A stretch of 64,000 nucleotides of DNA, from the NCBI RefSeq assembly GCF_900215215.1, contig NZ_OBDR01000003.1, positions 62,001 to 126,000 on the forward strand. Reading direction: 5' to 3'. The DNA is from Methanohalophilus euhalobius (GTDB lineage Archaea > Halobacteriota > Methanosarcinia > Methanosarcinales > Methanosarcinaceae). Under the pieces are notes generated by a model. That model searched no databases, was not told the DNA's origin, and was given only the letters and a program-made list of their open reading frames with translations. The translations under genes were made by a program, and so were the position numbers. Positions 1,383-64,000 of the stretch are shown piece by piece (within the stretch, counting starts at the first letter, position 1; every line of letters starts with the position of its first letter).

Positions 1383-2645
1383 ATGAGGAAAATTACAACT
1401 AAACAGTTAGCAGAAGACTTGGACTACTATAAGGTAATTGATATAAGATCCATTGACGCCTATAATGGATGGAAAGAAGGGGCAGAGGCAAGAGGCGGAC
1501 ACATAAAGGGCGCAAAGTCACTGCCCTATAAATGGCTACACTATATTGACTGGATAGAGATAGTCAGAGTTAAAGGAATCCTGCCAGAGGATTCTCTGGT
1601 AATTTATGGGTATGACAGCCAGAGAGTAGAAGAAGTAGCAAAACAGTTTGAAAGGGCCGGATACTCCGACGTAACTGTTTTCAACGATTTTTATGAATGG
1701 GCAGAAAAAGATTTGCCCATGGAGCATCTTGAAAGATATAAGCATCTGGTTTCAGCGGATTGGCTTAACCAATTGATCACAACAAATAATGCTCCCAAAT
1801 ACAATAATAATAAATTCGTGATATGTCATTCTCATTACAGGAACCCTTCGGATTATGATGAAGGCCATATTCCCGGAGCAATCCCAATTGATACAAACTC
1901 CCTTGAGTCTCCAGAGACATGGAATCGCCGCTCACCTGAGGAATTAAAGAATGCACTGGAAGAGGCAGGCATAGCACATGATACAACAGTCATACTTTAT
2001 GGAAAATTCTCTTCACCAAATAATGATGATCCGTTCCCTGGAAGCAGCGCAGGCCATCTCGGTGCAATGAGATGTGCTTTCATCATGCTTTATGCAGGTG
2101 TGAAAGATGTGCGCATACTCAATGGCGGTCTTCAGTCATGGCTGGATTCTGATTATGAAATAACTACAGTTCCTTCTAAAAACGAGAAAGTATCGTTTGG
2201 AGTTGACATCCCTCAAAAACCCGAAATTGCTGTTGACCTTGAAGAAGCAAAAGATATTCTTTCATCCCCTGACAAGAACCTGGTGAGTGTCAGAAGCTGG
2301 AAGGAGCATATTGGAGAAGTAAGTGGTTATAATTATATTGAAAAGAAGGGGAGGATTCCGGGAGCATTATTCGGTGATTGCGGAACAGATGCCTACCACA
2401 TGGAAAACTACAGGAATCTGGACCATACCATGCGTGAATACCAGGAAGTTGCAGCTAAGTGGAAGAAGATCGGAGTCACCCCCGACAAGCGCAATGCATT
2501 CTACTGTGGAACTGGCTGGAGGGGCAGTGAAGCCTTCCTTAATGCCTGGCTCATGGGCTGGAATAAAGCAGCTGTCTATGACGGCGGATGGTTTGAATGG
2601 AGCAATAATAACCTTCCTTTTGAAACCGGGGTCCCTGAAAAATGA
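1383..2645 (+). CDS. eanB: multi-rhodanese sulfurtransferase, EanB-like (hercynine to ergothioneine)
   Basis: This 420-residue protein has three rhodanese-type segments (about 1-110, 140-260 and 280-412). The first two lack the catalytic Cys: YGYDSQR and YGKFSS sit where the active loop should be. Only the third has it, in FYCGTGWRGS with Cys375. In EanB of Chlorobium limicola, as I recall, Cys412 carries the persulfide and Tyr353 acts as acid. Here Tyr316 (SGYNYIEKKG) lies the same 59 residues before Cys375. EanB replaces the C2-H bond of hercynine with C-S using polysulfide and no oxygen. The gene overlaps the methyltransferase by 4 nt and is followed by a desulfurase/SufE pair that could supply sulfur. 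Alternative: a generic thiosulfate sulfurtransferase, unlikely in this context. Confidence 0.8.
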   Translation: MRKITTKQLAEDLDYYKVIDIRSIDAYNGWKEGAEARGGHIKGAKSLPYKWLHYIDWIEIVRVKGILPEDSLVIYGYDSQRVEEVAKQFERAGYSDVTVFNDFYEWAEKDLPMEHLERYKHLVSADWLNQLITTNNAPKYNNNKFVICHSHYRNPSDYDEGHIPGAIPIDTNSLESPETWNRRSPEELKNALEEAGIAHDTTVILYGKFSSPNNDDPFPGSSAGHLGAMRCAFIMLYAGVKDVRILNGGLQSWLDSDYEITTVPSKNEKVSFGVDIPQKPEIAVDLEEAKDILSSPDKNLVSVRSWKEHIGEVSGYNYIEKKGRIPGALFGDCGTDAYHMENYRNLDHTMREYQEVAAKWKKIGVTPDKRNAFYCGTGWRGSEAFLNAWLMGWNKAAVYDGGWFEWSNNNLPFETGVPEK

Positions 2646-11895: not shown

Positions 11896-12515
11896 AAAAA
11901 TGAATTATGAAAAGATATCTAATAAAGATATTCATTTCAGAGATTTCTAAAACTGGAAGCAAGCCCATTCTAAATACTAGAAATACAGTGGTTTTGCAGG
12001 ACAAAATCCTTATGTGGCCGATGCCAAACAATCTATAGAGGATTCTGATCAACGTTCCTCTTCCAGAACTTCTATAAAATTTGTTCTTATTATCACTCTA
12101 CTAGCCTGTTTCCCGGACAATTATTCTGAAATATCTGCTTATTTTTAGATAGCTTCCGCCCTCAGTCCACCACCTTTTTTCTTTTTAACATCCTCATTTG
12201 ATGCAAATTGAAACAAAACGCCGTCACCATCATCGCATTAATTCACAGATTTAATGGGAGTTCCAAATTTTCAATCTGAAACAAAACACATTCATGACCT
12301 TTGTGTTTTTATGACCAAAATTACATTAGCAAAAAATCAATGTAATAAATAATAATATGTCAACAAGAATAAAGGGAAAGGCCCTTTACAGAGCCTAAAT
12401 TTAGCTGTTTTATATTCCTTCTCTTCATAAATTATCCTTGAACAGGTAATGGCAGGTTTAGGGGATTTTATGCAATTATCTGGCTACAGGTCTTGGTTCA
12501 GGACGCCTGTGGGCA
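11896..12515. other. non-coding stretch with a dispersed repeat and possible gene remnant
   Basis: No intact gene is visible. A short plus-strand frame at about 11990-12150 (reading NPYVADAKQSIEDSD, then TSIKFVLIITLLACFPDN and ending TAG) looks protein-like but has no start or recognisable family; it may be debris. The dispersed hairpin repeat occupies about 12241-12352. A perfect 6-bp hairpin (AAAGGG/CCCTTT, 12371-12387) may help end the aglB transcript. Confidence 0.5.
12241..12352 (-). repeat. dispersed hairpin repeat, copy A
   Basis: The minus strand of this segment aligns over about 110 bp with 31835-31946. Shared blocks include AATGTAATTTTGG, AACACAAAGG and GGAACTCCCATTA. The hairpin (12260-12282) reads GTTTCAGAT...ATTTGGAAC in this orientation, with two positions pairing as G-U on the minus-strand RNA. 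Copies B and C pair perfectly with different bases, so the fold is conserved. Confidence 0.65.
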
Positions 12516-31190: not shown

Positions 31191-32204
31191 TTCAATCTTT
31201 CTTTAGGCTCTACATCAGGCCAAATCCTAAAATATTTGCAACAAAAATATCAGATACACTAAAATATATCGTCTGCCATTGCATCTTCATACTTAATACC
31301 CAGATTGCTTCCAAAAAAATCCATTATTCTAAAGTATTGCTAGATGATTTTACTCCTGTATATGTATTAAGCACTGATTATAACTTTCTTTTTTGGATTA
31401 CTAGGTCAATCAGTTCCAAAATATCATATACTGATATGAAATCACTTGTCTGTTTTCTATCCCCTAAAGTGGTCGGGGATTGTTTGGCCTTTATACTTTC
31501 TATGAATTTTGAGATTAGCCCCAAAGAAGGGTTAGAGGAAATCATGTTGGAGATTGTAGATATTGAAAGGACGAATACAAACTATAATAGGTATTCCAAA
31601 AGAATGGTGATACACCTAGCGTATTTTCATCAGCCAGTTTACTTACTCAGTAAGGGGATTTGAGTTTAAATATGATATCAATAAAATAATCAAGGTAACC
31701 AGTTTTTTCTTTTGTGTTTTTCGCTGGAATTACGGATAGATTAAACTTCTCTTTTTTGTTTATGATAGAAAAGGATACGTATGAATAGAAAGATTTCGGT
31801 CTCTGTAGAAACTCTTTCTTCTAACTTTCACTAATGTATTATTTATATAAGAAAAGTCCCAATGTAATTTTGGCTAAAATAAACACAAAGGGAGTGAATA
31901 TATTTTGTTCCAGATTTAAGATCTGGAACTCCCATTATATCTATAATTGAATGGCATGTCAAAAGATTAATTAAAATTTATCGATTCAGTTATGTCTGTA
32001 GCTGGAGGATCACATCTTTCGATTTAACTTCAAGAATGACACAACCTGAATGCATGGCATATGTCATGCCCTGAAAAAAAACGGATCTCATACCAGTGGT
32101 ACATTTTATTCTCAAGTATGCATCAAAAATTACTGGAATATTTCTGGGTGATTTATGCATCCGGCAGTATTCGACTCCTCAAAACCGGACAATCACAATT
32201 TACC
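31191..32204. other. 1-kb gap with dispersed repeat and one weak reading frame
   Basis: A plus-strand frame ending at 31663, possibly starting at ATG 31435, reads MKSLVCFLSPKVVGDCLAFI and later MLEIVDIERTNTNYNRYSKR. I recognise no family and see no ribosome binding site, so I do not call it a gene. The dispersed repeat copy B lies at about 31835-31946. A near-perfect palindrome (GCATGGCATATGTCATGC, about 32052-32069) lies downstream of nrdJ. Confidence 0.45.
31835..31946 (+). repeat. dispersed hairpin repeat, copy B
   Basis: It aligns with the minus strand of 12241-12352 over about 110 bp. The hairpin is perfect: GTTCCAGAT (31907-31915), loop TTAAG, ATCTGGAAC (31921-31929), followed by TCCCATTA. 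Upstream, CCAA...TTGG (around 31859-31873) may form a smaller stem that also survives, with a wobble pair, in copy A. Confidence 0.7.
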
Positions 32205-63957: not shown

Positions 63958-64000
63958 TATTTCCTGATGTTTCATTTTTAAAATGAAACTCCCATTTAAT
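63958..64000 (+). repeat. dispersed hairpin repeat, copy C (cut by right edge)
   Basis: GTTTCATTT (63969-63977), loop TTA, AAATGAAAC (63981-63989) form a perfect 9-bp stem, followed by TCCCATT as in copies A and B. The stem bases differ from those of copies A and B but still pair. Upstream similarity is weak. Confidence 0.5.

Follow-up and report, generated by a model that had tools for sequence, protein, structure and literature searches.

The window, by which we mean the whole stretch of 64,000 nucleotides of Methanohalophilus euhalobius DNA analysed here (contig NZ_OBDR01000003.1, positions 62,001 to 126,000), contains three copies of a short hairpin, A on the minus strand and B and C on the plus strand, each with a 9 bp stem followed directly by TCCCATT. 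The initial annotation had described a hairpin element with TCCCATT as its tail. The copies are real, but the hairpin is one half of a two-hairpin mobile DNA unit of about 51 bp without a gene of its own, which we call E, and in all three copies TCCCATT is the 5′ arm of the second hairpin instead. The features are as follows.

12233–12283, minus strand: copy A, a complete 51 bp E (T, hairpin 1, TC, hairpin 2, CGA) with decayed stems (model match 66.7 bits; fold)
12284–12395, minus strand: what remains of an IS5-family left end (terminal repeat GGCTCTGTA..), carrying copy A (alignment with full-length and partial copies)
31798–31905, plus strand: IS5-family left end preceding copy B (alignment)
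31906–31956, plus strand: copy B, a complete 51 bp E at the leader site TTT^TGTCAA (model match 63.4 bits; empty site in L034, L040, L041 and L046)
31957–32021, plus strand: beginning of the IS5-family transposase region in decayed form, following copy B (similarity to TGTCAAGCGATTACTTAAACTTTATCGATACAGC..)
63968–64000, plus strand: copy C, a free-standing 49 bp E whose last 16 bases lie past the window end (model match 63.1 bits, contig 125969–126014)

Copy A reads TGTTTCAGATTGAAAATTTGGAACTCCCATTAAATCTGTGAATTAATGCGA on the minus strand. A whole-genome covariance-model search returns A, B and C with E-values of about 1e-13 to 1e-12, all three belonging to the set from which the model was built. 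When folded as single-stranded DNA and compared with shuffled sequences, B reaches z = −5.0 and C −7.6, whereas the decayed copy A stays at −1.2. The approximately 80 bp common to A and B, placed upstream of the hairpin in the initial annotation, are indeed shared, but they are the left end (leader) of an IS5-family element and lie outside E; they are common to both copies because A and B lie in decayed IS5-family left ends carrying the insert. Copy C is outside any insertion sequence and is conserved in five Methanohalophilus genomes; it is found at the same site in G003, G004, G006 and G007. In G001 (L377 and L380), an IS605-type element has landed inside the orthologue of copy C, apparently with loss of part of E.

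Architecture and fold of unit E

E is made up of a 5′ T, hairpin 1 (HP1), a conserved TC linker, hairpin 2 (HP2) and a 3′ YGA, with the consensus T-[GTTnC..GnAAC]-TC-[CyrTTAAATC nnn GATTTAAyr]-YGA, in which the consensus arms of HP2 are CCATTAAATC..GATTTAATGG. The length is about 51 bp (range 47–57 bp), and its ends, TGTT and YGA, do not form an inverted repeat. The boundary is fixed by a palindromic repeat of the Methanomicrobiaceae MAG UBA207, where the insert is T + 48 + GA = 51 bp with no duplication. In the 1.3 Mb of sequence scanned, HP1 and HP2 are essentially never found apart, the listed exceptions being antisense readings or pattern misses, and no split HP1 and HP2 halves flank a cargo or a gene. 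Since both hairpins occur together, E is a whole unit and not an end. The proposal that the hairpin marks the end of a single-strand transposing element thus gives way to a complete unit of 47–57 bp.

Selection on a fold, as first suggested from the three window copies, is supported by double-sided changes in an alignment of 98 distinct copies. Such changes affect 13 of the 19 pairs; double-sided compensation amounts to 198 cells compared with 48.7 in shuffles, standard pairs make up 93% of the pair cells compared with 81%, and the covariation score is 0.301 compared with 0.094 for shuffled alignments, every slid control being far lower (the best at 0.075), with the reservation that relatedness among the copies and an alignment fitted to the model push all these numbers upward. 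One pair alone occurs as UA 30, CG 29, GC 26 and AU 4 times. Within the window, the covariation claimed for the stems holds between B and C, which are compensatory at three pairs, but not between A and B, where two one-sided C-to-T changes make G–T. The G–U pairs of copy A, which had been taken as a sign of selection on the fold, are one-sided decay, each C-to-T change turning a Watson–Crick pair into G–T.

The mispairs in the alignment are G–T (36) and A–C (30) in about equal numbers. An RNA fold of one strand should favour G–U pairs and a DNA fold should not, so these numbers give no pointer to an RNA strand, and from this absence of a G–U bias we infer selection on the DNA strand. The window has no Rfam 15 match; at the positions of E there is none at E-values up to 1, and a search at a permissive threshold returned only tRNAs and two sub-threshold matches.

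Distribution and insertion sites

A covariance model built from 15 diverse copies finds 17 copies of E in the 1.94 Mb genome (E < 1e-4), not three, and detects E in 17 of 60 relatives, with up to 46 copies per genome; the search of the genome and its relatives that the initial annotation had proposed therefore did yield further copies. A scan with a degenerate pattern, covering one genome per species, returned 77 stretches, all in Methanosarcinaceae or nearby-filed MAGs, plus UBA207. The hosts are Methanohalophilus, Methanolobus, Methanococcoides, Methanosarcina, Methanomethylovorans and two bins labelled only Euryarchaeota. UBA207 (G068) carries 20 copies, largely intergenic, several of them identical in sequence, and near-identical copies stand at unrelated flanks. 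No E was found in viral contigs (pattern scan) or in phages (BLAST with the consensus unit). Plasmids gave a diverged double hairpin on a Methanohalobium evestigatum plasmid (NC_014254) and one partial, presumably chance, match; a plasmid search with the flanking region gave no match. Copies can also be paired: in G008 (L145, L253 and L255) two E-like units lie in direct tandem, the second beginning right after the YGA-or-similar end of a decayed first, and Methanococcoides seepicolus (L307) has an inverted pair at 1922–1969 (plus strand) and 2208–2255 (minus strand), about 290 bp apart.

In the M. euhalobius genome, 16 of the 17 copies lie inside insertion sequences: the IS5 leader accounts for ten, the IS5 gene for one and three other transposase genes for five. 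Used as a genome query, copy B retrieves about ten longer relatives, which are ends or miniature forms of an element of about 1.0 kb with the terminal repeat GGCTCTGTAGAAA and an IS5-family DDE transposase (PF01609, NF033579). Full-length copies of this element in related genomes (L034, L040, L041 and L046) are without the hairpin unit, whereas L003, L004 and L005 have exactly 51 bp extra at TTT^TGTCAAG, and L011 and L051 exactly 51 bp extra at GGAAAA^TACCGTC, within the transposase gene. Altogether, we identified six pairs of empty and filled sites, two in the IS5 element, three in other transposase genes and one in a palindromic repeat, and all six show an exact insertion of E without target-site duplication. 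The three other transposase genes are interrupted by further copies in the M. euhalobius genome; their E-less relatives have the following sites.

CGTAT^TTACCC: IS1634 family transposase gene
CAACAC^TTAACC: DDE transposase, weakly IS1182-like (empty relatives diverged, boundary less sharp)
GGAAAA^CCCAGG: IS5 family, NF033581 (empty copies in the same genome, 93–96% identical to the query)

The palindromic repeat is the intergenic TTCCAAACGTATTTTTGAAAA^AAGTTCAAAAAGTGACGTTCGTAAC of UBA207 (L353–L357 and L362), which has E at its centre in several copies: the empty site reads TTTTGAAAAAAGTTC (L355) and the filled site TTTTGAAAA-TGTTGC..GCGA-AAGTTC (L353). Since the E-less state encodes intact transposases, the insertion is the derived state, and E breaks transposase genes in either orientation. 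On these sequence comparisons, the mobility of E is well supported.

One position may have been used twice. A Methanococcoides copy (L308) and a copy of the M. euhalobius genome (L093) are inserted in the same IS5-type gene at exactly the same nucleotide; the host flanks are 69–70% identical, and the E units are identical at 50 of 51 positions. The simplest reading would be two separate recent arrivals at one position; exchange by recombination could be the alternative. In L051, L091 and L093, three transposase genes remain in frame across the 51 bp insert, whose HP2 adds one in-frame TAA; in L094 a 47 bp unit breaks the reading frame. We considered an in-frame 'bypassed' insert (51 = 3 × 17) and set it aside, in view of the frameshift in L094 and of the many sites in non-coding DNA.

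The IS5 element also exists in miniature forms. In L002, L006 and L008 of the M. euhalobius genome, the left leader is joined to the C-terminus of the transposase via a single E, as expected for a deletion by recombination between two copies of E. In L003 and L004 of the same genome, the E at the leader site ends in GGCA directly before TGTCAAGC, giving the junction GGC ATG TCA AGC, so that the A of an in-frame ATG start of the transposase comes from E; E-less copies have TTG.

A further context of E is the left end of IS605-type elements, where three arrangements occur.

CCTCGA^CAGCCG: G008 and G045 (E-less homologue L185)
CCCCG^TGCTGAAGACATCGGGG: Methanohalobium evestigatum (G012) and G040, beside tnpA/tnpB, E lying 36 bp after tnpA in Methanohalobium
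CCACC^GTATAAATACGGTGG: Methanolobus

The orientation of E relative to the left end is opposite in G008/G045 and in G012/G040, which implies at least two separate insertions. That E is an inherent part of IS605 left ends was rejected, given the E-less left end of matching length (L185) and the difference in orientation between lineages. It should be noted that the multi-copy contexts (the IS5 leader and the IS605 left ends) reflect the spread of the host elements, and that independent insertions are far fewer than copies. The left flanks of E differ (GGAAAA, TGTTT, CGTAT, CAACAC, TCCTGA and others), with no fixed target of 4–5 bases, and a general preference for hairpin-loop targets is not significant (mean rank 0.42, with 2 of 33 sites below 0.1). 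In Methanosarcina-like genomes (L138, L140, L141 and L242–L248), E is flanked by two other conserved hairpins, GTCCG..CGGACCTCGTGC and CCCGAAGCGAAACTCGGG, and forms a longer composite repeat with them.

Routes of movement and related elements

The empty and filled sites argue for mobility and the double-sided changes for a fold. We consider it probable that E is a gene-less two-hairpin repeat that is moved in trans as folded single-stranded DNA and has then spread as a passenger and given rise to miniature elements. By this likeliest route, E would move as a hairpin-folded single strand of DNA, which a putative enzyme, not encoded by E, would cut and rejoin in trans. E would multiply further as a passenger whenever its host insertion sequence transposes, and recombination between two copies in one insertion sequence would delete the transposase and leave a miniature element. 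A bolder proposal, which we put forward only tentatively, is that E is the founding family of a group of archaeal two-hairpin elements of about 50 bp, for which an enzyme outside the known transposase families would read two hairpins on one DNA strand and sometimes return to the same position of a host gene.

Y1 transposases are the natural candidate for the enzyme, but they fit E imperfectly. E could be a minimal PATE of the IS200/IS605 family, in which HP1 would form the left end, HP2 the right end, and a Y1 (HUH) TnpA would act in trans; we regard this as rather unlikely. The near-terminal palindromes and the absence of both terminal inverted repeats and target duplication are IS200/IS605-like, and E does lie in IS605-type left ends, close to tnpA in Methanohalobium. 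However, no fixed target tetranucleotide, or any fixed 4–5 base target, stands 5′ of E, and HP1 begins one base from the left end, without room for the guide bases that are known from IS608-type ends. Moreover, E lies inside IS605 ends, and in both orientations. Y1 transposase genes are present in G000, G012, G040 and G045, but none is found in the copy-rich UBA207 (G068), in G070 or in G002, and G008 has one truncated match, which is weak evidence as these genomes are drafts and may miss genes. In size, the PATE reading has a precedent in the 52 bp terminal-only PATEs of Haloquadratum (PMC3119063).

Movement via an RNA copy, by reverse transcription and insertion, seems less plausible still. 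It would account for the precise ends, the absence of target duplication and the low target specificity, and it has been proposed for the double-hairpin elements of Allomyces mitochondria (PMC2800124). Yet G–U pairs are not preferred over A–C mispairs, and the reuse of one exact site is unlike random insertion.

There is little to recommend the view that selection maintains E as a structured RNA or leader element with a function, whether a small RNA, as the initial annotation had suggested, or an mRNA hairpin. The strong compensation, the presence of copy C at the same place in five species and the position of E against the transposase start in L003 and L004, where it gives the A of ATG, would all suit it. 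On the other hand, exact insertions disrupt transposase genes in either orientation, no Rfam family matches, the mispairs show no strand-specific G–U signal, and copy C is, by eye, no more conserved than its flanks.

That E merely belongs to the IS5-family element, or to a miniature version of it, can be dismissed: 10 of the 17 copies in the M. euhalobius genome lie in the IS5 left end, but the four full-length elements cited above lack E, which occupies two sites of the same element as well as unrelated contexts, and the empty sites already contradict this reading. Copies A and B, together with L002, L006 and L008, are remnants or miniature forms (MITEs) of the IS5-family element, whereas E itself has neither the terminal inverted repeat of the insertion sequence nor a target duplication and is a passenger. 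An integron attC-like site was rejected by eye, as attC hairpins run AAC..GTT and E runs GTT..AAC.

Of the descriptions found, the nearest to E is that of the small mobile repeats SMR-A and SMR-B of Haloquadratum walsbyi, which are short and gene-less, cause no target duplication and occur in near-terminal palindromes of IS605-type elements (PMC3119063). E resembles them as a short, gene-less, multi-copy archaeal repeat that inserts into other mobile elements without target duplication, and like SMR-A it lies in near-terminal palindromes of IS605-type elements, in three lineages. By their descriptions the two are set apart: SMR-A is about 110 bp long with prominent terminal inverted repeats and SMR-B goes down to 80 bp, whereas E has 51 bp and two separate hairpins and is found in methanogens. 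We place E provisionally with the small mobile repeats, as a variant of that kind.

The double-hairpin elements of fungal (Allomyces) and sponge mitochondria, for the former of which the RNA route was suggested (PMC2800124), share with E two adjacent hairpins, mobility, the absence of flanking duplications, compensatory stem changes and the lack of a known enzyme. They differ in being mitochondrial and in their sequences, and units of about 50 bp give no phylogenetic signal for common descent. REP/BIME elements with RAYT transposases are likewise short palindromic repeats thought to be mobilized by a transposase in trans (PMC2817692, PMC3733652), but in the alignment of 98 copies the foot of the hairpins bears neither a GTAG nor a CGTC tag, and no E-flanked RAYT-like gene was seen.

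As far as the open-access text that we searched goes, E is undescribed. To our knowledge, few precisely bounded mobile DNA units are smaller. It offers enough empty and filled pairs, compensatory changes and cross-genus copies to make a mechanism testable, and it forms a link between the mitochondrial double-hairpin elements and the little-understood small mobile repeats of archaeal halophiles, for neither of which an enzyme is known. It also shows what a passenger of insertion sequences can do: disrupt transposases, provide a start codon and give rise to miniature elements.

Finally, a second double-hairpin family, with TTTGTAAATTGAAAATTTACAAATATCTTTAAATCTTTGATTTAAAGA and ACTCTAAAT.. variants, is present in G012 and its relative G040 (L381–L391, L132, L249 and L269). 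In tnpB elements, the TTTGTAAATTGAAAATTTACAAATATCTTTAAATCTTTGATTTAAAGA variant is located at the apex of a right-end stem (GAGAGAA/TTCTCTC), and this outer stem itself varies on both sides between copies.
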